DNA of 64,000 bases. It comes from Pseudodesulfovibrio sp. JC047 (lineage in GTDB: Bacteria > Desulfobacterota > Desulfovibrionia > Desulfovibrionales > Desulfovibrionaceae). Under the pieces are notes generated by a model. It had not been told where the DNA came from. It saw only the letters and a program-made list of their open reading frames with translations, and ran no database searches. The stretch covers positions 1 through 64,000 of the forward strand of contig NZ_WUEH01000005.1 in assembly GCF_010468615.1 (NCBI RefSeq). The letters run 5' to 3'. Position numbers and translations under genes: made by a program. Positions 13,591-55,092 of this stretch are shown one piece after another. Within the stretch, counting starts at the first letter, position 1. Each line of letters opens with the position of its first letter.

Positions 13591-15102
13591 ATGGCACAGT
13601 ATATTGGAGCTGTTGATTCCGGAACCACGAGCAGTCGATTCATCATTTTTGACGAGCGGGGCCGTATTGTCGGGCTGGACCAGAAGGAGCATCGGCAGAT
13701 TGATCCAAAGCCTGGATGGGTCGAACATGATCCCATGGAAATCTGGATCAATACCCAGGAGGTCATCAGGGGGGCGTTGACCAAATCCGGTCTCAAAGGG
13801 TCTGATTTGGCAGCCATCGGCATTACCAATCAGCGTGAAACCACGGTTGTCTGGGATCGAGCCACGGGCAAGCCTTTTTACAATGCCATTGTCTGGCAAT
13901 GCACCCGAACGCATCGGATATGCAAGGAACTCATGGTCGACGGCGGTCAGGATCGGTTTCGAGAAAAAACCGGATTGCCTATTGCCACCTATTTTTCCGG
14001 TCCGAAAATCAAGTGGATTCTGGATACTGTTCCCGAAGCGCGAATCGCCGCCGAAAAAGGAGATGCCATGTTCGGAACCATCGAAACATGGATCATCTGG
14101 TGGCTGACTGGTGGGCCAAAAGGAGGTGCTCATGTCACGGATGTGACCAATGCGAGCCGCACGATGCTCATGGATTTGAAGACGCTCGAATGGGATATGG
14201 ATATCATTCGAGCCATGGATATCCCTGCCGAAGGCCTTGCCCGTATTGTCCCCTCATCTGATGAAGATACATGGGGACCGACATCGGAAGACGGTCCTTT
14301 GGGTGCCCGTGTGCCTGTTTGCGGGGCGGTGGGGGATCAACAGGCCGCCTTGGTCGGGCAGACGTGTTTTGCGCCTGGTCAGGCCAAGAATACGTATGGA
14401 ACCGGGTGCTTTTTGCTCATGCACACCGGGCACAAGCCCATTCAATCTTCTCACGGCTTGATTACCACGCTCGCCTATCAGTTCAGTGGCCGCAAACCGT
14501 CCTATTGTCTGGAAGGCTCCATCGCCATTGCCGGGGCCTTGGTTCAATGGCTTCGGGACAACCTGCGCATGTTCGATTCCGCGCCGGAAGTCGAAGCACT
14601 GGCCAAAAAGGTCGAGGACACCGGCGGCATGTACATTGTCCCGGCATTCTCCGGCTTGTACGCGCCGTATTGGCGACCGGACGCCCGAGGGGTCATGGTT
14701 GGTCTGACCCGATATATCAACCGGAATCATATTGCTCGTGCCGTGCTCGAAGCCACAGCCTATCAGACCATGGATATTGTGGAGGCCATGAACAAGGATT
14801 CCGGTGTCGAGTTGCAAACACTCAAGGCGGACGGGGGCATGGTGTTCAACGAGCTGCTCATGCAATTTCAATCCGATATACTCAATGTCCCGGTTGTGCG
14901 GCCCAAGGTGGCTGAAACAACCTGCCTTGGCGCGGCCTATGCCGCAGGTATCGCCGTGGGATTCTGGTCCGGGCGGGAAGAGTTGTCCAACAATTGGGAA
15001 GAAGATCGGACCTGGCAACCCAACATGGCCGAACACGACCGGGCCGAAGGCTACAACGGATGGAAAAAGGCTGTCGAACGCACCTATGATTGGGTTGATT
15101 AG
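13591..15102 (+). CDS. glpK: Glycerol kinase
   Basis: A 503-residue FGGY-family kinase that phosphorylates glycerol to sn-glycerol-3-phosphate with ATP. The N-terminal phosphate-binding motif is [15 protein letters not shown], with [11 protein letters not shown] shortly after. The C-terminal half has [13 protein letters not shown] and the ATP-site segments near [11 protein letters not shown] and [12 protein letters not shown] at 13591 has AGGAGA upstream. A longer open frame upstream overlaps hdrB and is not coding. It directly follows the G3P oxidation genes and completes the pathway from imported glycerol. Confidence 0.95.
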
Positions 15103-43870: not shown

Positions 43871-45250
43871 ATGAAAGGGTATTTGGGAAAATTTTGTGCG
43901 ATTACGGTTTTGTCCTTAGTGTGTCTCATCCCTTTGAGTATGGTTGAAGGGGTCATTTACGAAAGGGATCGGTTGCATCAGGACGTCGGGGTTGAAATCG
44001 CCTCACAATACGCGGGGTATCAAAGGTTGACTGCGCCGGTCCTGGTGGCGGAATACACGTTGGAGGAAACCTCCACCCGAATTGTTCGAGACGCATTGAC
44101 CAAGGAACGGAAGGAAGAAACCTTCACGGCCAAGGTCCTGGCCAATAGGATTCTTGTCCCGGAAAAAACGTTTGTGAAAGGGGTGTTGCGTCCAAACACA
44201 CTTCAACGGGGAATCTTTTCCATTCCGGTCTACACCTCGAAGGTTCAGATCAATGAATTCTTTTCAAAGAGTGATGTGCCACGCGTCGGGCAAATGGTGG
44301 ATGGAATGCGGGTGGTTGCTGTTTCCCTGGTGATGCTGATGCCGTTGAAGGAGCCGGGCGGGATTTCAACGCCGCCCTTGCTGCAATTGAACGGACGGAA
44401 AATGGATGTGTATCCCAGTCATAAAAATGCGGTCATCAAGCCGTGGCCAACGGGGTTTTCGACATCGGTTGATCCCGCATCGATCGATGAACATCCGGTG
44501 ATTTCTTTTTCCATGACGCTTGATCTGCACGGGTCCCATGAGTTGAGTTTCATTCCTTTGGGTGGAGAGTATGCAGTGGACCTTCAATCGATTTGGCCGC
44601 ATCCGCGATTTGATGGTGCGTATTTGCCTGCGACCCGCGAAGTGACGCGGACAGGATTCAAGGCACATTGGTTGGTCACGGAGTTTGCCAATGGCGCGGG
44701 GCTTGGAAGCGCAGATATCTTGAGTTGGGACCGTCCTTCATTTGGCGTGGAACTCATAGATCCGGTGGATATCTATACAAAATCTGAACGGGCGGTGAAA
44801 TATGGGTTTCTGTTTGTTCTCCTGACATTGGAATTTTTTTTCCTTTTTGAAATGCTTCGGGGAATGCGGATTCATGTGGCCCAGTATCTTTTTGTTGGTG
44901 CCGCATTGATCATTTTCTATTTGTTGCTGATTTCCCTGTCCGAACATATCGGTTTTGTCTTGGCGTATCTTGTCGCGAGTTGCACCTGCGTTTCCTTGCT
45001 GACCGTGTATGTGCGGAGCATGGTCAAAAGCATGAAAGTCGCCCTTGGGTTCGGGGGGGCGATCGCCGTTTTATATGGCGCGCTGTATGGGATTCTGCTC
45101 TCGGAACAGTATGCACTTGTGCTTGGGTCCGGATTGTTATTCATCATACTGGCCGGAACCATGTTTTTGACACGTCATGTTGATTGGTATTCTCTGGAAG
45201 GGGCGGCGGAGTATACAAAATTACTGCGGCGAAAAAAGACGATTGAATAA
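43871..45250 (+). CDS. creD: CreD-family inner membrane protein
   Basis: A 459-residue membrane protein. A single N-terminal membrane segment is followed by a large extracytoplasmic domain (about 35-300), then a cluster of five or six membrane segments. The start (LSMVEGVIYERDRLHQDVGVEIASQYAG) is the typical CreD signature. AAAGGAGG precedes ATG 43871, and a longer frame upstream overlaps creC. Function is unknown beyond roles in envelope stress and beta-lactam response in other bacteria. Confidence 0.9.
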   Translation: MKGYLGKFCAITVLSLVCLIPLSMVEGVIYERDRLHQDVGVEIASQYAGYQRLTAPVLVAEYTLEETSTRIVRDALTKERKEETFTAKVLANRILVPEKTFVKGVLRPNTLQRGIFSIPVYTSKVQINEFFSKSDVPRVGQMVDGMRVVAVSLVMLMPLKEPGGISTPPLLQLNGRKMDVYPSHKNAVIKPWPTGFSTSVDPASIDEHPVISFSMTLDLHGSHELSFIPLGGEYAVDLQSIWPHPRFDGAYLPATREVTRTGFKAHWLVTEFANGAGLGSADILSWDRPSFGVELIDPVDIYTKSERAVKYGFLFVLLTLEFFFLFEMLRGMRIHVAQYLFVGAALIIFYLLLISLSEHIGFVLAYLVASCTCVSLLTVYVRSMVKSMKVALGFGGAIAVLYGALYGILLSEQYALVLGSGLLFIILAGTMFLTRHVDWYSLEGAAEYTKLLRRKKTIE

Positions 45251-45268
45251 GATGGCTTGTGAACGAAA

Positions 45269-45302
45269 CGCCCCGTGTCATGTCGGCACGGGGCGTTTTT
45301 TT
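45269..45302 (+). terminator. Terminator after creD
   Basis: CGCCCCGTG and CACGGGGCG form a 9-bp stem followed by seven T residues. Confidence 0.88.
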
Positions 45303-45329
45303 GTGGGGGTATGCGGCTGATGCCGTGCA

Positions 45330-45623
45330 TCAGCTGTTGAGTGGTGTCAGGACAACTTCCTTGTGGTCGTTGAATCCCAGTGAATAAGCAGTGCCGTATT
45401 TCTCAAGAAAATCCTCTTCTGCGGTGAAGGGGACACCTTCGATTTCGATTCGTTCGTCATCATCTTCATCAGCTTCATCCATGCCCAGACCGAGCACGAT
45501 TTTCGCATGTCAGCCTCCGCCGATTTTATATTCACGAAGCCTGATACAGGTCTCTTCGTCTTCATCTTCAAGCATGGTCCGGAGTTTATCGAGCATCTCT
45601 TCCGGGACAGTCAGTTCAAACAT
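45330..45623 (-). CDS. HesB-like selenoprotein (in-frame UGA read as selenocysteine)
   Basis: A 97-residue protein if the TGA at 45512-45510 (codon 38) is read as selenocysteine. The sequence continues in frame on both sides: CIRLREYKIGGG, U38, then HAKIVLGLGMDEADEDD, ending TPLNS at a second TGA. The motif GGG-U-HAKI matches HesB/IscA-like small proteins that carry cysteine or selenocysteine at this place. It lacks the C-terminal CGC of true A-type Fe-S carriers. A hairpin directly after the UGA could be the bacterial SECIS. It starts 17 bp after the C_GCAxxG_C_C gene, in the glycyl radical enzyme cluster. An ordinary gene caller would cut it in two or miss it. Confidence 0.8.
45480..45509 (-). 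promoter_or_regulatory. Candidate bacterial SECIS hairpin
   Basis: Immediately after the UGA, the RNA CAUGC pairs with GCAUG 30 bases on. Inside, AUCG and CGGU pair (one G-U) around a UGCU loop that includes a G, a feature needed for SelB recognition. The loop is somewhat close to the UGA. Confidence 0.55.
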
Positions 45624-45640
45624 GATATTTTCCTCGTTGA

Positions 45641-46189
45641 TTATGGTTGGATTCGCACGGGTCCAAGCCCGTGTTTGGTGAATTCGTCAGGGTGGGAGTC
45701 ATTGATCGGATCAACGCTCTCATTTGTTGTGTCCGGAGTGTCCGGATTGAGAAGTTGGTCGGCACAGATGGCTGTCGCCGATTCCACATACTTGAGGCAG
45801 ATTCCCTTGGATGTGGAATTCGGGTCGCGGGTTTTGCTCAAATCCCGACAACAGACACTTCCGTAGTGCGTCAAAAAGCGGTCATGCAGTTTTTTGGAAG
45901 CCGTGCGGACGGTCTTTTCGTCGGCTGGCAGTGGTCCATTCCCGAGAATGAGGCTTTGGGCCATGACCGCACCGGCCAGTGCGCCGCAGACACATCCGGC
46001 ATCGCCAATGCCACCGCAAAATCCTTTGGAAATGGCACGAGCGGTCTCCGGTGACAAACCACCGTGAAATTCCTGGTTGATGACAGTCAGGACAGCCTCG
46101 GAACAACACATTGAACCAGAACCGTACAGGTGCCGGGCTGCCGAGCTTGTTCGTGCGATGAGGTCCGCATTTTTTTCATGGGCTTTCAT
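45641..46189 (-). CDS. C_GCAxxG_C_C family protein
   Basis: A 182-residue cysteine-rich protein. Conserved cysteines occur in SMCCSEAV, KGFCGGIGDAGCVCGALAGAVM, SVCCRDL and near KGICLKYV, the pattern that names the C_GCAxxG_C_C family. These proteins are thought to bind metal or do redox chemistry, but the function is unknown. The start at 46189 (MKAHEK) trims 39 unsupported residues. It lies between the activase gene and the selenoprotein gene with gaps of about 20 bp, so all three are probably cotranscribed. Confidence 0.82.
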   Translation of the reverse strand: MKAHEKNADLIARTSSAARHLYGSGSMCCSEAVLTVINQEFHGGLSPETARAISKGFCGGIGDAGCVCGALAGAVMAQSLILGNGPLPADEKTVRTASKKLHDRFLTHYGSVCCRDLSKTRDPNSTSKGICLKYVESATAICADQLLNPDTPDTTNESVDPINDSHPDEFTKHGLGPVRIQP

Positions 46190-46209
46190 TGTGAATCCTT
46201 TTGGAGTCG

Positions 46210-47103
46210 TTACACAATGACGGTTTTCAGACCGTGGTTGGCAAATCGTTCCAGAACGACATTCAGTTGTTCCGGCGTGTATTCGCCAGACATCCGGTAG
46301 GGCCATCCCAGGGCCGCATATTTGTTACGGCCAAAAGCGTGACAGGGCATCACTTCGATTTCTGTTCTGTCAAATTCCTTGAAGAAGTTCGCCATGGCTG
46401 CGATGTTTTCGTCAGAATCATTCATGTCTGGCATCAACGGCATACGAAGACGGACCTGTGTGTCGGAATTCAGGGCTGCCCGCAGATTTCGTAGAATGAT
46501 GGTGTTATCCTGTCCGGTGTATTTTTTATGCTGCTCCGGATCCATGTGTTTGCAGTCAAACAAGAAAAGGTCTGCCAGTTCGATGGTGCGGTCAAAGCGT
46601 TCAGCAGGGCAGAAACCACACGTATCAACAGTGATATGAAATCCTTCGTCATGCGCCGCCTGTGCCAGATCCAGAAAGAACGCGCCGCCAGCTGTTGGTT
46701 CTCCTCCGCCAAAAGTGACCCCGCCGTTTGAGTTCTCATAAAAGAGGGAATCTTTACGGACGACATCCATAATGGCTTCGACAGTCATTTCCTTGCCAGC
46801 TATTTCGCGGGCTTTGCTCGGGCACACGTCGGCACATTGGCCACAGTTGATACATTTCTCGACATCTCGTCCGAATTTCCCGTCCAGTGGGACCACGGCC
46901 CCGGCAGGGCAGACGTTCATACAGGCGCCGCATCCGGTGCAGAGTGATTCGAAAAACATCAGCTGCGGTGTTGTTCTTTGCGATTCCGGATTACTGCACC
47001 AGAGGCAGGAGAGCGGACATCCTTTCAAAAAAACCGTGGTTCGCAATCCCGGACCGTCCTGAACAGACATTCGTTGAATATTGTAAATCATTCCCTGACT
47101 CAT
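46210..47103 (-). CDS. Glycyl radical enzyme activating enzyme
   Basis: A 297-residue radical SAM enzyme. The SAM cluster is C29/C33/C36 (CPLSCLWC). Two extra ferredoxin clusters are inserted after it (CTGCGACMNVCP and CINCGQCADVCP), as in activases of glycyl radical eliminases and decarboxylases. FGGGEPTAGG marks the SAM-binding strand. It installs the glycyl radical on the enzyme encoded upstream. The start at 47103 has GGAG 7 bases upstream, and a 72-residue extension crosses the intergenic hairpins and is not used. Confidence 0.92.
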   Translation of the reverse strand: MSQGMIYNIQRMSVQDGPGLRTTVFLKGCPLSCLWCSNPESQRTTPQLMFFESLCTGCGACMNVCPAGAVVPLDGKFGRDVEKCINCGQCADVCPSKAREIAGKEMTVEAIMDVVRKDSLFYENSNGGVTFGGGEPTAGGAFFLDLAQAAHDEGFHITVDTCGFCPAERFDRTIELADLFLFDCKHMDPEQHKKYTGQDNTIILRNLRAALNSDTQVRLRMPLMPDMNDSDENIAAMANFFKEFDRTEIEVMPCHAFGRNKYAALGWPYRMSGEYTPEQLNVVLERFANHGLKTVIV

Positions 47104-47227: not shown

Positions 47228-49681
47228 TTAGGAAGTGTATTCTGTGCGTTTGATAATCTCGTTCTGAACGCCCATGTCCAGACGGGTGAAGTAGGCGCTG
47301 AAACCGGCGACACGAACAACCAGATCCGAGTATTCTTTCGGGTTGACCTGTGCGTCTTTCAATGTCTTGGAGTCAACGCAGTTGAACTGGATATGGGAGC
47401 CGCCAAAGTCGCAATACGTCTTGATCAGCGAGATGAGCGTGCGTGCTCCGTGTGGGCCTTCGATGACAGAAGGAGAGAACTTGACGTTGAAGTGGTTCGC
47501 TCCATATCGGACGGTATCAATAGCCTCCGCACCGGACTTGATGAGGGCGGTGATGCCTTCGTGGTCGGTTCCCGGCATGGCAGAGACGCTGCCGTCAGTC
47601 AGGGCGACACCCGCCTTACGGCCATTGGGCAAGGCACCCATGAGTGCGCCGAAGTAGTTGTGGTAGGACAGGGAGTACGCATCCAGCGGAGTGCGGTAGC
47701 CAAAGCAGTCCGGCCCTTGAGCGTGGTGGATGGCATCCACATCCCTGTAGTATTGTTGCACGAATGCTTCGACTTCTGGGTAATCGTTGCCGTGTTTGGG
47801 GGCGTCAAAGCACATTTTTCGGATGTTTTCGCAGCCTTCGAAGTTCGATTTGATGGCATCCAACAGTTCTTTCATCGTGAGCTTTTTGGTGTCAAAAACC
47901 AGATGCTTGATCGCGAGCAGGGAGTTTGCCGCATCGACACCGGCGGTCATGATGGGGTTGACCTGTGGATAACGGGTTCCGCCAGCCTCTTCGCAGACAC
48001 CTTTTTCAATGCAGCCGTCATACATCGCGGAACGGAAGATACTCGGAACGACTTGGAGTCTGGCCATTTGGCTCAGGTCAGAATGTTTCCGGGAGATGTT
48101 GAAGAGGTGGTCGAGTTGTTTTTTGTACGCGTCGTAGACCTCGTCAAAGGAGGTGAATTCGGTGGGATCGCCGGTTTCAACACCAACGTTCTTTTTCGTG
48201 ACTGGGCATTTGCCGTTGTTCAGCATGACCTCGACGATCTTGGCGAGGCAGGGCTGATCTTCCTGAGTGATGAAGCTGCCTTTGCCGCAAATGCCAGTGG
48301 AGACACAACCGTAGTTGCCGCAGTTTCTGGCATCTTCCAGCGAAATGCCTCCTTCATATTGTCCGAATCGGGCGAGGTTTCGTTGAACAACCACAGTGTT
48401 GTTCAAAATCTGCGGCTGACCGGACCCGCCACGAATGCATTCCACTACTTTTTTCAGATAGGAATCTTTCATCTTGGGATGATAGAGCAGTGTCAGCGTG
48501 GGCTGAATGTTTTTCATTGTGACCTGGGTATCGAGCAACATTTCTTCCAGCTCGGTGCTGGCGTCATTGCCATCGGCATCCACGCCTCCGATGGTGATGC
48601 TTTGTCCTGTGTGGCCGGACAGGGTCAGTGCGTATGAGTTGCCTTGATATTCTGCCAGTTCGAGATGTTTGATCCACTGAAATTTAAGGAGGGTAGAGAC
48701 CTGTTCCCGTGTCAGGTTCCCCTCGTCGATATCTTTTTTGAAGAAGGGGTACATGTACTGACCGTAGCGCCCCGGAGAGGTTGCACATGCCATTTGCTCG
48801 ATTTCAATGGCCAGATGGATGAACCAGAATGACTGGATTGCTTCGCGGAAGTTGCGGGCCGGGAATTCGGGAACACGGCGGCAGATTTCAGCGATTTCCA
48901 GCAGCTCTTTTTTGGCCTTGGGGTCTTTTTCGTCGGCAGCGGTTTTTTCGGCAAGGTCCGCATAGCGATGAGAGTGGGCAATAACCGCTTCCAGCGTCAC
49001 GAGCATGGACCGGTACAGTTCGTGCTTTTCAGTGTTCGCCAGCGTGGTGGGGCAGTTCTCAAAACGAGTTTTGACATCGTCAATGAGCCAGCGCAACCCC
49101 TTGTTCAGGACCATGGGATAGTCGGCAATGCCGGAGCCACTCGCAACACTGACGTTTTCATAATACATGCCGGCCTTGGCATACGGCTTGGGGTTGATGC
49201 CATATTTTTCCTTGAACAATTTGTTGTTCAGGTCAATGCAGGTATGGCCTTTCCACAGCTTGTAGGTTTTTTCCAGCAATTCCTGTGTCTCGGCCGGAAT
49301 TTTCATCTCGCCCAGTGAGGCCATTTTGGCCATCTGCATCTCTTCCTTGATCCAGGAAACGTTCCATTCCGGGTATGCGTAGACACCAGCTCGCACGCCG
49401 GTGAGCGTGCCAACGATGGGATTGCCATCGAGGAAAATGTTTTTTCTGGTCAGGACACGTTCAAACAATTTGGCGCGAATGTAGAATGTGGATTCACCTT
49501 GGTATTCTTTATAGACTTCGTTGAGAAATTGCAGCCGTTCGGGGTCCATCACCTGTGGAGCGTTCATGAGAAAACTCTTGAGTTCCTTGACTCGATTTTC
49601 AGCGGTATCCCAATTGATGCCATATCCCATGGATTCCGTGGCTGTTGATTCGGTATCGTGTATCGTCGAAAGATTGGTCAT
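47228..49681 (-). CDS. Glycyl radical enzyme of unknown substrate (GCVS active site)
   Basis: An 817-residue enzyme of the pyruvate formate-lyase-like superfamily. The radical glycine is G793 in RVAGFSAYF and the thiyl cysteine is C459 in NYGCVSTGIC. Choline lyase, diol dehydratase, isethionate lyase and hydroxyproline dehydratase carry GCVE, where the glutamate is the general base. Serine here argues against those reactions. The gene is first in a leftward cluster with its activase, a C_GCAxxG_C_C protein and a selenoprotein. A sigma-54 promoter lies 78 bp upstream and a divergent sigma-54 activator follows. A TauE-type exporter and an amino-acid permease nearby hint at an amino-acid-like or sulfonated substrate, but this is inference. 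Confidence 0.88.
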   Translation of the reverse strand: MTNLSTIHDTESTATESMGYGINWDTAENRVKELKSFLMNAPQVMDPERLQFLNEVYKEYQGESTFYIRAKLFERVLTRKNIFLDGNPIVGTLTGVRAGVYAYPEWNVSWIKEEMQMAKMASLGEMKIPAETQELLEKTYKLWKGHTCIDLNNKLFKEKYGINPKPYAKAGMYYENVSVASGSGIADYPMVLNKGLRWLIDDVKTRFENCPTTLANTEKHELYRSMLVTLEAVIAHSHRYADLAEKTAADEKDPKAKKELLEIAEICRRVPEFPARNFREAIQSFWFIHLAIEIEQMACATSPGRYGQYMYPFFKKDIDEGNLTREQVSTLLKFQWIKHLELAEYQGNSYALTLSGHTGQSITIGGVDADGNDASTELEEMLLDTQVTMKNIQPTLTLLYHPKMKDSYLKKVVECIRGGSGQPQILNNTVVVQRNLARFGQYEGGISLEDARNCGNYGCVSTGICGKGSFITQEDQPCLAKIVEVMLNNGKCPVTKKNVGVETGDPTEFTSFDEVYDAYKKQLDHLFNISRKHSDLSQMARLQVVPSIFRSAMYDGCIEKGVCEEAGGTRYPQVNPIMTAGVDAANSLLAIKHLVFDTKKLTMKELLDAIKSNFEGCENIRKMCFDAPKHGNDYPEVEAFVQQYYRDVDAIHHAQGPDCFGYRTPLDAYSLSYHNYFGALMGALPNGRKAGVALTDGSVSAMPGTDHEGITALIKSGAEAIDTVRYGANHFNVKFSPSVIEGPHGARTLISLIKTYCDFGGSHIQFNCVDSKTLKDAQVNPKEYSDLVVRVAGFSAYFTRLDMGVQNEIIKRTEYTS

Positions 49682-49774: not shown

Positions 49775-49862
49775 TTTCGTTGTTTTTGTGCTTTTTTAAG
49801 TAATAACACCTTGATATAACAGTGTTTATTGGTCAATTTAGCGACTTTATGAGATCGTGAAA

Positions 49863-49889
49863 AAAGTTTTTTTTTATAAAAAAAACTTT
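49863..49889. repeat. AT-rich palindrome between the divergent genes
   Basis: AAAGTTTTTTTT and AAAAAAAACTTT are perfect 12-base arms around TAT. The centre is about 102 bp upstream of the sigma-54 promoter, a usual distance for an activator site. It could also act as a terminator in either direction. Confidence 0.45.
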
Positions 49890-49973
49890 CTTTTTCTACA
49901 AAAATTTTTCATTGGAGGGCTGGACGCACACTTTTTCCTTGTATTCACACTCATTTTGAAGGGGTTGTATGCT

Positions 49974-51470
49974 ATGTATTTTGACAAGAAAAAGTTCTTT
50001 AATGTTAATCGTGAGAGCGTATTAACGCCTTCCATGAAAGCCATTTGGGATGATATGGGGCTTGGTGTTGCTGTCGTGGACGCAAATGGCCTGTGTGAAT
50101 ACATGAATCCCATACAAAGTCTTGTTGATGGTTTTGGCCGAGTTCCTGTTGAGGGACAGCATATAACGGATCTTTATGTGCCACATGATGTGAAGTGTAT
50201 TCCGACGCTTGAATGCCTTCAAAAGGGACAGCCGTTGCTCAAGAAAAGTTATTTTTACAAGACGACGAACAACTATCTTGCCAGTACGGTTTCGGATTTT
50301 TTCCCATTGTTTGATCACGGGAAAAAGGATGGCGTCATTGCTTTCACCATCTGGACAGGGACCACGTCCTTGGTGAAGCGGCACAAGCGGTCGGCAAAGG
50401 GCGTTGTTCCTGAAAAAAGTCCGTATGAATATTATACGTTTGACAGTCTGATTGGGAAAGATGCTGCCTTGATCGAAGTGATGAATGAGGCGCGAACCGC
50501 TGCGCAGTCGGCATCGCCCGTCATGATATGGGGAGAAAGCGGCACCGGGAAGGAGTTGTTTGCGCAGGCGATCCATGCTGCAAGTACTCGGTGCCAGCAT
50601 CCATTGGTCCCGGTGAATTGTGCGGCTATTCCTGAAAATTTACTGGAGGGGATTCTTTTTGGCACGGCCAAGGGGGCGTATACTGATGCCGCAGACAAAC
50701 CCGGGCTTTTCGAAGAAGCCGATGGCGGGACATTGCTGCTTGATGAACTGAATTCCATGCCCATGGGATTGCAGGCAAAGCTTCTTCGCGTCCTCCAGGA
50801 AAAACGGGTCCGTCGGCTTGGGTCCCGTACTGAAATACCAGTGGATGTCCGGGTTATCAGTATCTTGAATGTCGATCCACTGTCTGCGGTGGAGCAAAAT
50901 ATCTTGCGGCGAGATTTGTTTTACCGTCTTGCCGTTGTGGGGCTTTCCATACCGTCATTGCGGCAACGCAAACGGGATATTCCTTTGTTGGCCCGCACAT
51001 TTATCGATCGTTCCGAGCATCGTGGGAACAGCGGGGAAATCGTTCTCGATAAAGAGGTCCTTCGCGTTTTTCGTGACTATGAATGGCCGGGAAATATCCG
51101 TGAGCTGTTGCACGTCATAGAGGGGAGTCTTGCCTTGATTGGTGATCGGTTGTCCATTGAGTGGGGCTGCCTTCCTCGTCATTTCAGAGATGCCTGTCAC
51201 AATGCAGAGGCTCCGCGCAAGGCTGTATGCAGTCCGGTTGCACCGGTGGTGACACCTTCTGCCCAGAAAACCTTTTATGATTATCAGACGATCAAACGGA
51301 GCAATGTCATTTCGCTCAAGGAATGCGTGCAGACGTATGAGGCGGAATGCATACGGAATGTGTTGCGAGTCACTGGCGGTAACGTGGCAAAGGCCGCACG
51401 GATTATGGAGCTGACAGGTGCGGGCCTGCGATACAAGATAAAGCAGCTTAACATTGAAGACGATGAATAG
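49974..51470 (+). CDS. PAS-containing sigma-54 activator with altered GAFTGA loop
   Basis: A 498-residue RocR-like activator: a PAS-type sensor domain at about 20-130, AAA+ domain at about 155-390 with Walker A GESGTGKE and Walker B LLLDELNSM, and a Fis-type helix-turn-helix in the last 40 residues. The sigma-54 contact loop reads GAYTDA (234-239) instead of GAFTGA. There is no receiver domain, so it likely senses a ligand directly. ATG 49974 with AAGGGG upstream is preferred over a frame starting at 49857. It is divergent from the glycyl radical enzyme gene, its likely target. Confidence 0.85.
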   Translation: MYFDKKKFFNVNRESVLTPSMKAIWDDMGLGVAVVDANGLCEYMNPIQSLVDGFGRVPVEGQHITDLYVPHDVKCIPTLECLQKGQPLLKKSYFYKTTNNYLASTVSDFFPLFDHGKKDGVIAFTIWTGTTSLVKRHKRSAKGVVPEKSPYEYYTFDSLIGKDAALIEVMNEARTAAQSASPVMIWGESGTGKELFAQAIHAASTRCQHPLVPVNCAAIPENLLEGILFGTAKGAYTDAADKPGLFEEADGGTLLLDELNSMPMGLQAKLLRVLQEKRVRRLGSRTEIPVDVRVISILNVDPLSAVEQNILRRDLFYRLAVVGLSIPSLRQRKRDIPLLARTFIDRSEHRGNSGEIVLDKEVLRVFRDYEWPGNIRELLHVIEGSLALIGDRLSIEWGCLPRHFRDACHNAEAPRKAVCSPVAPVVTPSAQKTFYDYQTIKRSNVISLKECVQTYEAECIRNVLRVTGGNVAKAARIMELTGAGLRYKIKQLNIEDDE

Positions 51471-51492: not shown

Positions 51493-51529
51493 GCAGAGGG
51501 AGGGACACAACCTCCCTCTGCTTTTTTTT
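51493..51529 (+). terminator. Terminator after the sigma-54 activator gene
   Basis: GCAGAGGGAGG and CCTCCCTCTGC form a perfect 11-bp stem followed by eight T residues. It lies at the convergent end with the TauE-type gene. Confidence 0.88.
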
Positions 51530-52262
51530 ACAAAAAAGAACGGCCGAGACAGACAATGCCTGCGAGGGTGATGACCACCATGAGAACGCGTCTGAAGGTT
51601 TCGACATTGATGTGTTTGACGACGGGGAAAGCGCAGAGAGTCCCTAGAATTGTGGCTGGAATGCCATACAGTACATAGTTGAATAACGCCGGTGTATACA
51701 TGCCTGCCGAAGCCTGTAAGGCACAGGTCATGGTGCCTCTGATAACGAAGAAGACGCCGAGTGTTCCCAGAAAGGCCCTGGGGCTCCAATTGACATACAG
51801 CCCGTATGCTCCGACCGGGGGGCCATCGAATGAGATGGCTGTTCCCAGTAATCCAGCTCCGAACCCGGCGGCGCCACCGCGTCCCCAGGATTCCTTGTGG
51901 ACTGTTTTGACCTGGAATGTCTGTTGCCAATAGACATAATAGAGGAGCAGCAGTCCAACCGCTCCCTGCAAAATGGCTCCGGAAACGAGTTGCAGGATAA
52001 ACAGACCGAGAATGGCCCCGGGCAGTGATCCGACCAGCATTGGCCAGAGGGCTGACACGCGGCAGTGTCGAAAGTGCATACACGCGATACATCCATCCAT
52101 GATGACATTCAGAATGCAACTGAGCGGAATGAGGTCGTGCATGGGGATGAACATGGCTGCCACGGGAACCGCAACCAAGGCTCCTCCAATGCCGCTGACG
52201 CCGGAGACAAAGCCGCCGACAAGCCATGCGCAGAAGACCATGATGTATATTGGATCAGGCAT
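51528..52262 (-). CDS. TauE/SafE (TSUP) family sulfite/sulfonate exporter-like permease
   Basis: A 244-residue membrane protein with about eight segments and the repeated glycine-rich TSUP motifs GFVSGVSGIGGALVAVPV and GGAAGFGAGLLGTAISFDGPPVG. Members export sulfite, sulfoacetate or similar anions. The start at 52262 (MPDPIY) is proposed. The frame is open upstream into the DUF4125 coding region without a stop, so a fusion or a second lesion is possible. The location beside the glycyl radical enzyme cluster suggests it exports a product of that pathway. Confidence 0.78.
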   Translation of the reverse strand: MPDPIYIMVFCAWLVGGFVSGVSGIGGALVAVPVAAMFIPMHDLIPLSCILNVIMDGCIACMHFRHCRVSALWPMLVGSLPGAILGLFILQLVSGAILQGAVGLLLLYYVYWQQTFQVKTVHKESWGRGGAAGFGAGLLGTAISFDGPPVGAYGLYVNWSPRAFLGTLGVFFVIRGTMTCALQASAGMYTPALFNYVLYGIPATILGTLCAFPVVKHINVETFRRVLMVVITLAGIVCLGRSFL

Positions 52263-52839
52263 TGGATGATTTCTCCGTCTCCCGAGAGGGGGGGTGTTCA
52301 GGTGTCTTGCATATTTTTTGAGTGAGCCGTGCCCCAGTTTGCTCATGAGCAGGTCGTATCGTTGTTGGACCAGATTCTCTTTGGTGTCTTGTGCGGTGCG
52401 GACGCATGTTTCATAGGCGTCCATGGTTGTTATCGAGTAGGTCTCTAGTTCGCAGCCAAGATAGCGGCAAAAGCTTTCATGCCCGTCGGGGTGGACAATT
52501 TTCGGGAATTCTTTGGCAACGTCTTTTCGCCATGCGCTTTCCGCTGCGACAATTTCTTCGATGCGTGGGTCTGTACTGATGGAGGGGATTAATTGATCCA
52601 TGAGTGCGTATTTTTCGGTCATGAAATTACGCCCTTGTTTTTGGGCCTGTCGTAGATCAGCGATAGGAATGAAGAAAGTCGTCCGAGAGTACTCCGTGAG
52701 TGATTTCTCGCATGAGTCGAAATGATTCAGGTCGTTCTTGGCATATGGAGGTGCCGCCCTGATTCTTTACGGCAAGGAACATGTCCAGTTCAGAATGAAT
52801 GATTTCTTCGATGAGTGCTTCACGAATATTTTCTGGCAT
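52263..52839 (-). pseudogene. Frameshifted DUF4125 gene
   Basis: The first part (start 52839, MPENIREALIEEI) reads EMF-type DUF4125 sequence LDMFLAVKNQGGTSICQ up to FLHSYR and a stop at 52657. The remainder, ADLRQAQKQGRNFMTEKYALM onward, continues in another frame from about 52670 to the TauE-type gene. Joined, they give a protein of about 195 residues, the normal DUF4125 length. A net loss of two bases (or gain of one) near 52670 explains it. There is no homopolymer there, so either a real lesion or an assembly error is possible. DUF4125 has no known function. Confidence 0.75.
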
Positions 52840-53168: not shown

Positions 53169-53310
53169 TTTCAAAAAAGATATAGATTTTTATTTTTTGC
53201 AAAAAGTTGTGAGAGTTGTTTCGTAAAATAATCAATAATTTTAGTAGTATGTTGAGATGGTGAAGAATTTCACGTAATGGCATTGTCTTTGCTTATAAGG
53301 GAATCAAGCA

Positions 53311-53471: not shown

Positions 53472-53574
53472 GATACATGTTTTTTTGTCGGTAGCAGTGC
53501 TTTGAATGCCTGTTTGTATTGATTTGATTGATACAAATATTCACGAAGAATTCCGTAAATTGAAGAGAGTTTAT

Positions 53575-55092
53575 ATGTCTCAAGACGAACATTTGAAATT
53601 GGAAAAATCGCTTTCCCCGGCACAAGTGTGGGCGTTGGCGCTTGGATCGATCGTTGGCTGGGGCTGTTTTGTCTTACCTGGTGATATGTTTTTGCCTCAG
53701 GCCGGTCCGTTGGGAACCCTGATTGGTTTTCTGGTTGGGGCCTGCCTGCTGTGTTTTGTCGCGGTTTGCTATAGTTATATGATCAAGTACGCTCCCGTTG
53801 CCGGTGGAGCTTTTGCCTATGCCTATGTTGGCTTCGGTCCGACAGCCGCCTTTATTTGCGGTTGGGCACTTGTCCTTGGATATATTGCCATCATCGGTAT
53901 TGATATCGCCGCCCTTGCGCTTATCTTTCGTTTTCTTTTCCCGGGTGTTTTTGAATTCGGGGCATTGTATTCCATCGCTGGATGGGACGTCTATACGGGC
54001 GAAGTCCTGCTCATGTCCGGTGCGACCCTGTTGTTTGGCTGGTTGAATTATCGTGGGATCAGTTTTGCCGGTAAGTTGCAGGTCGTCCTTGCCTTTTTGT
54101 TGACGGTGGGGATTGTGGGATTGTTCTCCGGTGCAAGTACTTTGGAGACCGCCAGCATAGGCAACCTTGTTCCTCTCTTTGCTGAACACCGTTCAGTCCT
54201 GTCTTGCGTATTGCTGATTTTTGCCATTTCTCCCTTTCTTTTTGTGGGATTTGATACGGTGCCGCAGGCGGCCGAGGAGTTTTCCTTTGATCCTGCGCGT
54301 GCTCGGAATATCATGATTATAGCCATTTTGTGCGGTGTTGTTTTGTATAGCCTCGTGACATTGTCTGTCGCAATCGTCATTCCGTATCCTGAAATGCTCG
54401 CAAAGATGGACGCCATCCGTGCCAGTGGCGGGACTGCGTGGGCAACAGGCGAAGCCGCGACCATGGCTTTCGGCAAGTTTGGTGCCACAGTTTTGGCGTG
54501 CGCCGTCATGGGAGCCGTTTGCACGGGAATCAACGGTTTTTACATCGCGACGTCCCGATTGCTGCTCAGCATGGCGCGTGGTGGAATCCTGCCTTCCTGG
54601 TTTGGTGATATCCATCCCACGTATCGTTCTCCCTACAAAGCCATTTTGTTCACCATCGGAATTGTCTTGCTGACACCATTTGCCGGTCGAGCCGTTGTTG
54701 TATGGATCGTGGACATGAGTTCTGTCGGGACTGGTATCGGGTACCTTTTCACCTGCCTTGCTGCCCGTCGTGTTTTGCTTGGTAGCCCAGAGGTTTCTGA
54801 AAGAGCTGTTCGCATGTTCTGCTGCATCATGGGAACATTGACCGCTGTGATGTGTATTGTTTTGTTGCTTGTCCCCGGCTCTCCGGCTTCCATTGGTGTC
54901 GCGTCCCGTTGGTGCCTGGTTGTTTGGGTCAGTTTGGGTGTCTTCTTTTACTTTTCCAACAAGAGCGAGTGGGCGAAACTCCCTGAAGCGGATTTGCGCG
55001 CACAGATTCTTGGACGTCGGGATATCCCCGTGTTTTTCAAATCTCGAGAACCTCGGCCTCAGCTGCAGGAGCAGAGTTCTTCGGTGGAATAA
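53575..55092 (+). CDS. APC-family amino acid/amine permease
   Basis: A 505-residue membrane transporter with twelve predicted segments. The first segment has the APC-typical GSIVGWGCFVLPGD, and a later FVGFDTVPQAAEEF matches the family's substrate-gate region. APC permeases carry amino acids, amines or related zwitterions. GAGAG lies 5 bases before ATG 53575, and an upstream in-frame extension is not supported. A sigma-54 promoter candidate precedes it and a strong terminator follows. It may supply the substrate of the nearby glycyl radical enzyme, but this link is only contextual. Confidence 0.85.
   Translation: MSQDEHLKLEKSLSPAQVWALALGSIVGWGCFVLPGDMFLPQAGPLGTLIGFLVGACLLCFVAVCYSYMIKYAPVAGGAFAYAYVGFGPTAAFICGWALVLGYIAIIGIDIAALALIFRFLFPGVFEFGALYSIAGWDVYTGEVLLMSGATLLFGWLNYRGISFAGKLQVVLAFLLTVGIVGLFSGASTLETASIGNLVPLFAEHRSVLSCVLLIFAISPFLFVGFDTVPQAAEEFSFDPARARNIMIIAILCGVVLYSLVTLSVAIVIPYPEMLAKMDAIRASGGTAWATGEAATMAFGKFGATVLACAVMGAVCTGINGFYIATSRLLLSMARGGILPSWFGDIHPTYRSPYKAILFTIGIVLLTPFAGRAVVVWIVDMSSVGTGIGYLFTCLAARRVLLGSPEVSERAVRMFCCIMGTLTAVMCIVLLLVPGSPASIGVASRWCLVVWVSLGVFFYFSNKSEWAKLPEADLRAQILGRRDIPVFFKSREPRPQLQEQSSSVE

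Follow-up and report, generated by a model that had tools for sequence, protein, structure and literature searches.

The small gene at 45330..45623 on the minus strand of the window (the whole stretch of 64,000 nucleotides analyzed here, from Pseudodesulfovibrio sp. JC047) is interrupted by an in-frame UGA and almost certainly encodes a selenium-containing protein with an IscA-like fold. Judged from sequence comparisons, it is probably both a real selenoprotein and the dedicated partner of one clade of glycyl radical enzymes (GREs); this estimate covers identity and partnership, and the chemistry is graded separately below. The following features of the locus were identified:

45330..45623, minus strand: predicted ErpA-related (NF033940) selenoprotein gene, 97 aa, Sec at codon 38 (read-through translation and family match)
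45510..45512, minus strand: in-frame UGA, predicted selenocysteine codon 38 (frame; alignment to Cys in homologs)
45479..45499, minus strand: bacterial SECIS-like hairpin, 8-bp stem, apical loop GGUCU (fold and Sec/Cys gene comparison)
45641..46228, minus strand: C-GCAxxG-C-C family protein gene (PF09719, 92.8 bits; scanned stretch, start codon uncertain)
46210..47100, minus strand: radical-SAM GRE activase gene (TIGR02494, 365 bits; start codon uncertain)
47228..49681, minus strand: glycyl radical enzyme gene, 817 aa; Cys459 in GCVSTG (no CXE Glu), radical Gly793 in RVAGF, extra invariant Cys299
49857..51470, plus strand: sigma-54-dependent activator (best NCBIfam match PrdR, 310 bits, below the cut-off of 795)
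51528..52839, minus strand: DUF4125 and TauE/TSUP exporter, the DUF4125 part in two frames
53506..55092, plus strand: APC-type amino-acid permease; similar permeases recur beside the GRE on other fragments

An in-frame UGA within an ErpA-related gene

The sequence-only reading had joined two minus-strand frame pieces through the TGA at 45512-45510, and coordinates, frame and position of the UGA proved to be exact; the final UGA of the open reading frame lies at 45332-45330 on the minus strand. A profile search against NCBIfam showed that NF033940 (full name 'ErpA-related iron-sulfur cluster insertion protein') matches residues 1-93 of the read-through protein with 135.1 bits (cut-off 65), and a search of the raw genome with this profile gave 127.6 bits with '1 TGA' inside the match. 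At E 0.001 the whole genome yielded no second NF033940 match. Across the 33 UGA genes of the close clade, codons 1-37 have a median pN/pS of 0.22 and codons 39-97 one of 0.29, showing that the part behind the UGA evolves as coding sequence. The claim that the sequence is coherent on both sides of the UGA is thus borne out by the profile match and by the purifying selection on the later codons.

To compare codon 38 among homologs, we searched 297 genomes of the order for NF033940; 71 gave a match at E 0.001, and in 47 it exceeded the cut-off. With an HMM built from a clean seed, 78 family ORFs were extracted from the window and from 50 regions around the over-cut-off places outside it. Codon 38 is TGA in 41 of these ORFs and Cys in 35, so that homologs with C or U at this position, as the sequence-only reading had proposed to look for, make up nearly the whole set; the remaining two ORFs, both remote paralogs of about 30 bits, carry Asp. 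The Sec position aligns with the Cys of the motif GGGCSG in the A-type protein HI1723 (2apn). A third, remote paralog is present in tandem arrays (L086:3441-3755, L088:6405-6740, L131:10573-10869), and the two aligned ones (L086, L088) are those with Asp at the Sec/Cys position.

A lone UGA gene occurs on 20 fragments and a lone Cys gene on nine; 17 combine one gene of each form, and five have other sets. In a tree of 76 members, which has few columns and many open forks, at least 14 changes between Sec and Cys are needed, and four of them are forced by well-supported branches. Some genomes of the NF033940 family hold Cys forms only; selenium is therefore not essential.

A search for selA, selB, selC and selD had also been suggested, and all parts were found in the same genome over their cut-offs: selB with 399 bits, tRNA-Sec with 76 bits, selA with 601 bits and selD with 339 bits. 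The selD gene (L105, G000:C23:26653-27582) contains one in-frame TGA, and SelD is therefore probably a selenoprotein itself. In a survey of the 48 genomes with the family (the 47 and G310) at a threshold of E 1e-8, tRNA-Sec was detected in 41 of 41 genomes with a UGA form. It was not found at this threshold in five of the seven Cys-only genomes, a result weaker than the bare numbers because a single genus accounts for three of the five and one of the assemblies has a completeness of only 86%.

A SECIS-like hairpin is kept in UGA forms

The GGUCU loop of the hairpin starts 18 nt after the UGA, and the fold has an energy of -11.9 kcal/mol. These values agree with the constraints for bacterial SECIS elements given in a figure legend of a 2026 review (PMC13188914): a small loop, a G in its first two positions, a location 16-37 nt after the UGA and an MFE of -7.5 or lower. 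The folding energy by itself does not stand out (z = -1.0), being reached by 26 of 200 shuffled sequences. Rfam searches gave no SECIS match for 45200-45800, where one chance snoRNA match was obtained (E 0.83), and for the whole window nothing at gathering score and no SECIS family.

Since folding of the single sequence is not significant, the case for a SECIS element rests on the comparison of Sec and Cys genes. This was limited to genes that encode Leu-Gly-Leu at the loop, which are 33 of the 41 UGA genes and 17 of the 35 Cys genes (8 and 18 excluded). The GGUCU loop is present in 33/33 UGA genes versus 8/17 Cys genes, all eight stem pairs in 24/33 versus 0/17 and at least seven pairs in 33/33 versus 4/17, counts that come from related sequences and are not independent. 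On the 14 fragments with both forms, the UGA copy has a mean of 7.86 pairs and the Cys copy 6.0. The hairpin seen behind the UGA is thus SECIS-like, preserved in UGA forms and decayed in Cys forms. Together, all sequence tests except single-sequence folding energy and Rfam support the assignment of the window gene as a selenoprotein gene within NF033940, as well as its tie to one GRE clade described below.

The gene accompanies one clade of glycyl radical enzymes

The window GRE (47228-49681) served as the query against these 297 genomes, up to three candidates being scored in each. A sharp gap in the scores was found: 49 genomes have a match of at least 748 bits (48-100% identity), and the next matches reach at most 432 bits. 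In genome G293 the match is cut by the contig end (500 bits, 61% identity). All 47 genomes with NF033940 over the cut-off fall within the resulting 50 with the clade GRE; among the 247 others, no match to the family exceeds this cut-off. The remaining three clade-GRE genomes are G292, in which a weaker family member (50.7 bits, L140) lies directly behind the GRE, G215, for which no IscA-like gene was found on the 13-kb fragment searched (L141), and G293, whose contig ends inside the GRE gene.

The clade GRE was found on 48 of 51 fragments. It always lies upstream of the family genes and on their strand, at a distance of 25-1761 bp from the closest one. Missing it are L090, a 6.6-kb contig, L091, which holds a second Cys copy, and L092, with the gene at the contig start. 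The sequence-only reading had placed the gene at the end of a GRE cluster and called the setting unusual; the cluster is confirmed, and the setting is a conserved rule for the family.

Among 395 genomes of the phylum, five have NF033940 over the cut-off and 11 a GRE match at E 1e-150, including those five. Sixteen further fragments were fetched. One of them, from G310, a member of another order, contains a GRE of 57% identity followed by UGA and Cys copies. On seven fragments with a GRE of 46-50% identity, a distant IscA-like ORF was found at most 100 bp away in five (L134, L140, L142, L143, L144) and about 4 kb away on the other strand in L132, and none was found on L141. Two of these distant ORFs, near divergent GREs of other orders, have a UGA at the motif (L132:11829-12092, L134:8792-9067) and possibly represent independent gains of Sec. 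Fragment L145 (G092, second GRE, 54%) has a family ORF with neither Cys nor Sec at the motif, as read by eye. No IscA-like gene was present on the fragments of 3-19 kb with GREs of 38-45% identity (L133, L135-L139).

The activase gene is located between the GRE and the selenoprotein-family gene on 36 of the 48 fragments, including the window, an order that suits the activase as a partner just as well as the GRE. On the other 12 the family gene lies 25-203 bp behind the GRE. Seven of them encode the activase on the other strand (L076, L084, L088, L094, L096, L097, L098), and in L095 and L099 it lies kilobases away on the same strand. No activase was found on fragment L093, the family gene of L089 stands between the GRE and the activase, and L086 breaks off inside the GRE. 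Since the gene still follows the GRE on ten fragments with the activase elsewhere, a role with the GRE itself is favored. One arrangement counts against such a role: the UGA copy of L100 is found about 3 kb past the Cys copy, and it is the latter that adjoins the GRE cluster.

Among open-licence PMC papers, screened by title and abstract start, no report of a link between an IscA-type selenoprotein and a GRE was found; one paper on glycyl radical and HesB was unrelated by its title.

The linked enzyme lacks the CXE glutamate

The window GRE contains the domains PF01228 (101 bits) and PF02901 (526 bits), and its model shows a GRE fold (pLDDT 79.7), with low-confidence stretches including 460-462 and 670-705. 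C459-V-S/G/A/T, Cys299 and G793 are conserved in 47/47 clade proteins. With trans-4-hydroxy-L-proline dehydratase (HypD) and other GRE eliminases the enzyme has the fold, the catalytic Cys and the radical Gly in common; however, their CXE Glu is replaced by Ser, Gly, Ala or Thr in the clade, and Asp278 of HypD aligns with Cys299. One unrelated GRE also has Cys there. The HypD profile NF043068 gave 509 bits with the window GRE versus a cut-off of 1100. Glu occupies the CXE position in two unrelated GREs on the fragments, and Gln or Glu is found there in several more distant relatives. According to PMC7077986 and PMC8473560, this Glu is essential in both HypD (E436Q) and IslA (E470Q). Lacking it, the clade GRE probably does not belong to the known type of eliminase.

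The neighborhood of the GRE was compared on 50 fragments, with rough counts that come from a crude gene caller: an APC permease was found on 27, a TauE/TSUP exporter on 25, DUF4125 on 17 and the C-GCAxxG protein on 10, and a sigma-54 activator also recurs. From the permease, the exporter and the activator we infer that the GRE substrate is probably amino-acid-like and used catabolically. A strict sigma-54 promoter pattern matched four times in the window (0.79 expected), with no match before the GRE. A sigma-54-type pattern is located at 53278-53293 on the plus strand, about 210 bp before the amino-acid permease. Scans of the window for sigma-70 promoters and terminators gave results at chance level.

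Several further observations were made at these loci. At 51528-52839 (minus strand) of the window, DUF4125 extends across two adjacent frames, the second part continuing into TauE, and L068, L072 and L083 have two separate genes there; the break in the window is either a frame error of the draft assembly or a decayed gene. In L069 (9841-17440) the first cluster is directly followed by another GRE, which is unrelated (30%) and comes with an activase, a sigma-54 activator and a TauE-like gene of its own. The GRE of L060 (G243:C4:107379-109580) has an internal TGA or frame break in the assembly. Relatives with this clade GRE include MAGs of Mailhella, a gut genus; the nearest relative (86% identity) comes from a Pseudodesulfovibrio MAG.

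An IscA-like fold with a single conserved chalcogen

The predicted structure of the window protein has a mean pLDDT of 91.7. A Foldseek search with the model gave IscA and SufA as the best PDB matches, with a TM score of 0.70 for 1s98 (IscA). Among 48 aligned members, R28, G35, C/U38, F66 and G77 are invariant. A-type carriers have three ligand Cys, including a C-terminal CxC. The window protein shares the fold of the A-type carriers IscA, SufA and ErpA and has Sec at the position of their first ligand Cys, but their C-terminal ligand Cys are absent: no Cys follows codon 38 in the window protein or in 56 of 76 homologs.

We discounted an intramolecular selenenylsulfide with Cys26, as this residue is present in only 52 of 76 members and, according to the secondary structure of the model, lies at the opposite end of a strand from residue 38. 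We know of no redoxin with an IscA-like fold. Since in addition no resolving Cys is conserved, a simple role as disulfide reductase is weakened.

The protein had been described as a HesB/IscA-like selenoprotein. The IscA-like fold holds; the family is NF033940, of which the window protein is a full-length match, and not the HesB-like selenoprotein of anaerobes. The name of NF033940 mentions neither Sec nor GRE, yet 41 of the 78 members compared have UGA at the key codon. The review PMC13188914 describes the HesB-like protein as TIGR01911 with the motif UxGP and counts it among the selenoproteins with no established role; a text search of its main text found neither NF033940 nor ErpA. TIGR01911 did not appear among the NCBIfam matches of the window protein. 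Some of the 'HesB-like' Desulfovibrio selenoproteins of a 2006 survey (PMC1794560) might belong to NF033940.

A candidate role and its rivals

In the mechanism we propose, SelB and tRNA-Sec would read the UGA at codon 38 as selenocysteine, steered by the hairpin right behind it. The product would present a single conserved chalcogen (Se here, S in the Cys paralogs) at the place of the first A-type cluster-ligand Cys, with the C-terminal ligand Cys absent. This IscA-fold protein would serve the one GRE clade without the CXE glutamate of the known GRE eliminases. As a small subunit or selenol donor, it may reduce, repair or load the active site of the GRE, where the alignment places a second invariant Cys. 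Direct action of the lone selenol on this enzyme is quite possible, though we would put it somewhat short of an even chance. The small subunits of other GREs, benzylsuccinate synthase beta/gamma and the HPAD small subunit, are likewise small proteins dedicated to one GRE. They have other folds and bind Fe-S clusters by several Cys.

A more specific version, which we regard as possible but doubtful, is a two-component radical enzyme: the clade GRE, with no eliminase Glu and with a second invariant active-site Cys, would work only with the IscA-fold partner, whose lone selenol or thiol would reduce the active site, give an H atom to it or exchange sulfur with it. Mixed dimers containing a Se-S pair would be in line with the repeated emergence of tandem Sec and Cys copies.

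Two alternatives concern the nature of the gene. UGA stops most genes and the hairpin energy is unremarkable, as would be the case for a true stop with a pseudogene or an overlapping artefact behind it; the purifying selection past the UGA, the Cys at codon 38 in paralogs and the restriction of UGA forms to genomes with a tRNA-Sec match make this reading extremely improbable. It is also very unlikely that the window protein simply belongs to the HesB-like selenoproteins already known. The two share a Sec residue in a protein of the IscA type and a weak match to NF038090 (IscA_HesB_Se), but this match has 26.2 bits versus a cut-off of 85, and the motif of the window protein is UHAK instead of the UxGP given in PMC13188914. 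The same genome moreover holds a separate, classic NF038090 pair (L103; G000:C22:11856-12149, 14136-14429), one with an in-frame TGA and one without, and this family was therefore rejected as the home of the window gene.

Two others accept the selenoprotein and assign it a different task. In the main rival reading, a GRE-specific Fe-S carrier, it would hold a cluster with Sec or Cys from two subunits and deliver it to the radical-SAM activase or to the GRE. The IscA fold, the name of NF033940 as an ErpA-related insertion protein, Sec at the first A-type ligand position and the activase in the operon, which in the window carries Fer4 domains (extra ferredoxin-type clusters) and lies between GRE and family gene on most fragments, speak for such a carrier; with the C-terminal A-type ligand Cys lacking, PF01521 at 22.0 bits under its cut-off of 26.3 and the gene staying behind the GRE on the ten fragments with the activase elsewhere or on the other strand, we consider it rather unlikely. 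Less likely still is protection, in which the selenol would quench or repair the glycyl radical, or trap what the GRE makes, be it a reactive product, a sulfur species or a metal. This would suit the lone conserved selenol with no resolving Cys and the exporter and C-GCAxxG protein close by, but the profile results for the window protein include no match to GrcA, and the tight linkage to one clade would require a hazard specific to this clade. The preferred reading, a partner that acts on the GRE itself, is graded above.

Small proteins of this kind would be overlooked or shortened by gene finders that stop at UGA. The near-exclusive link between a subfamily of IscA-type selenoproteins and one GRE clade gives the protein a concrete partner, an operon and an assay, and the GRE clade, which lacks the hallmark of the known GRE eliminases, may carry out different chemistry. 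If the two-component radical enzyme is true, it would be a reaction class new for GREs and the first defined role of an IscA-type selenoprotein.
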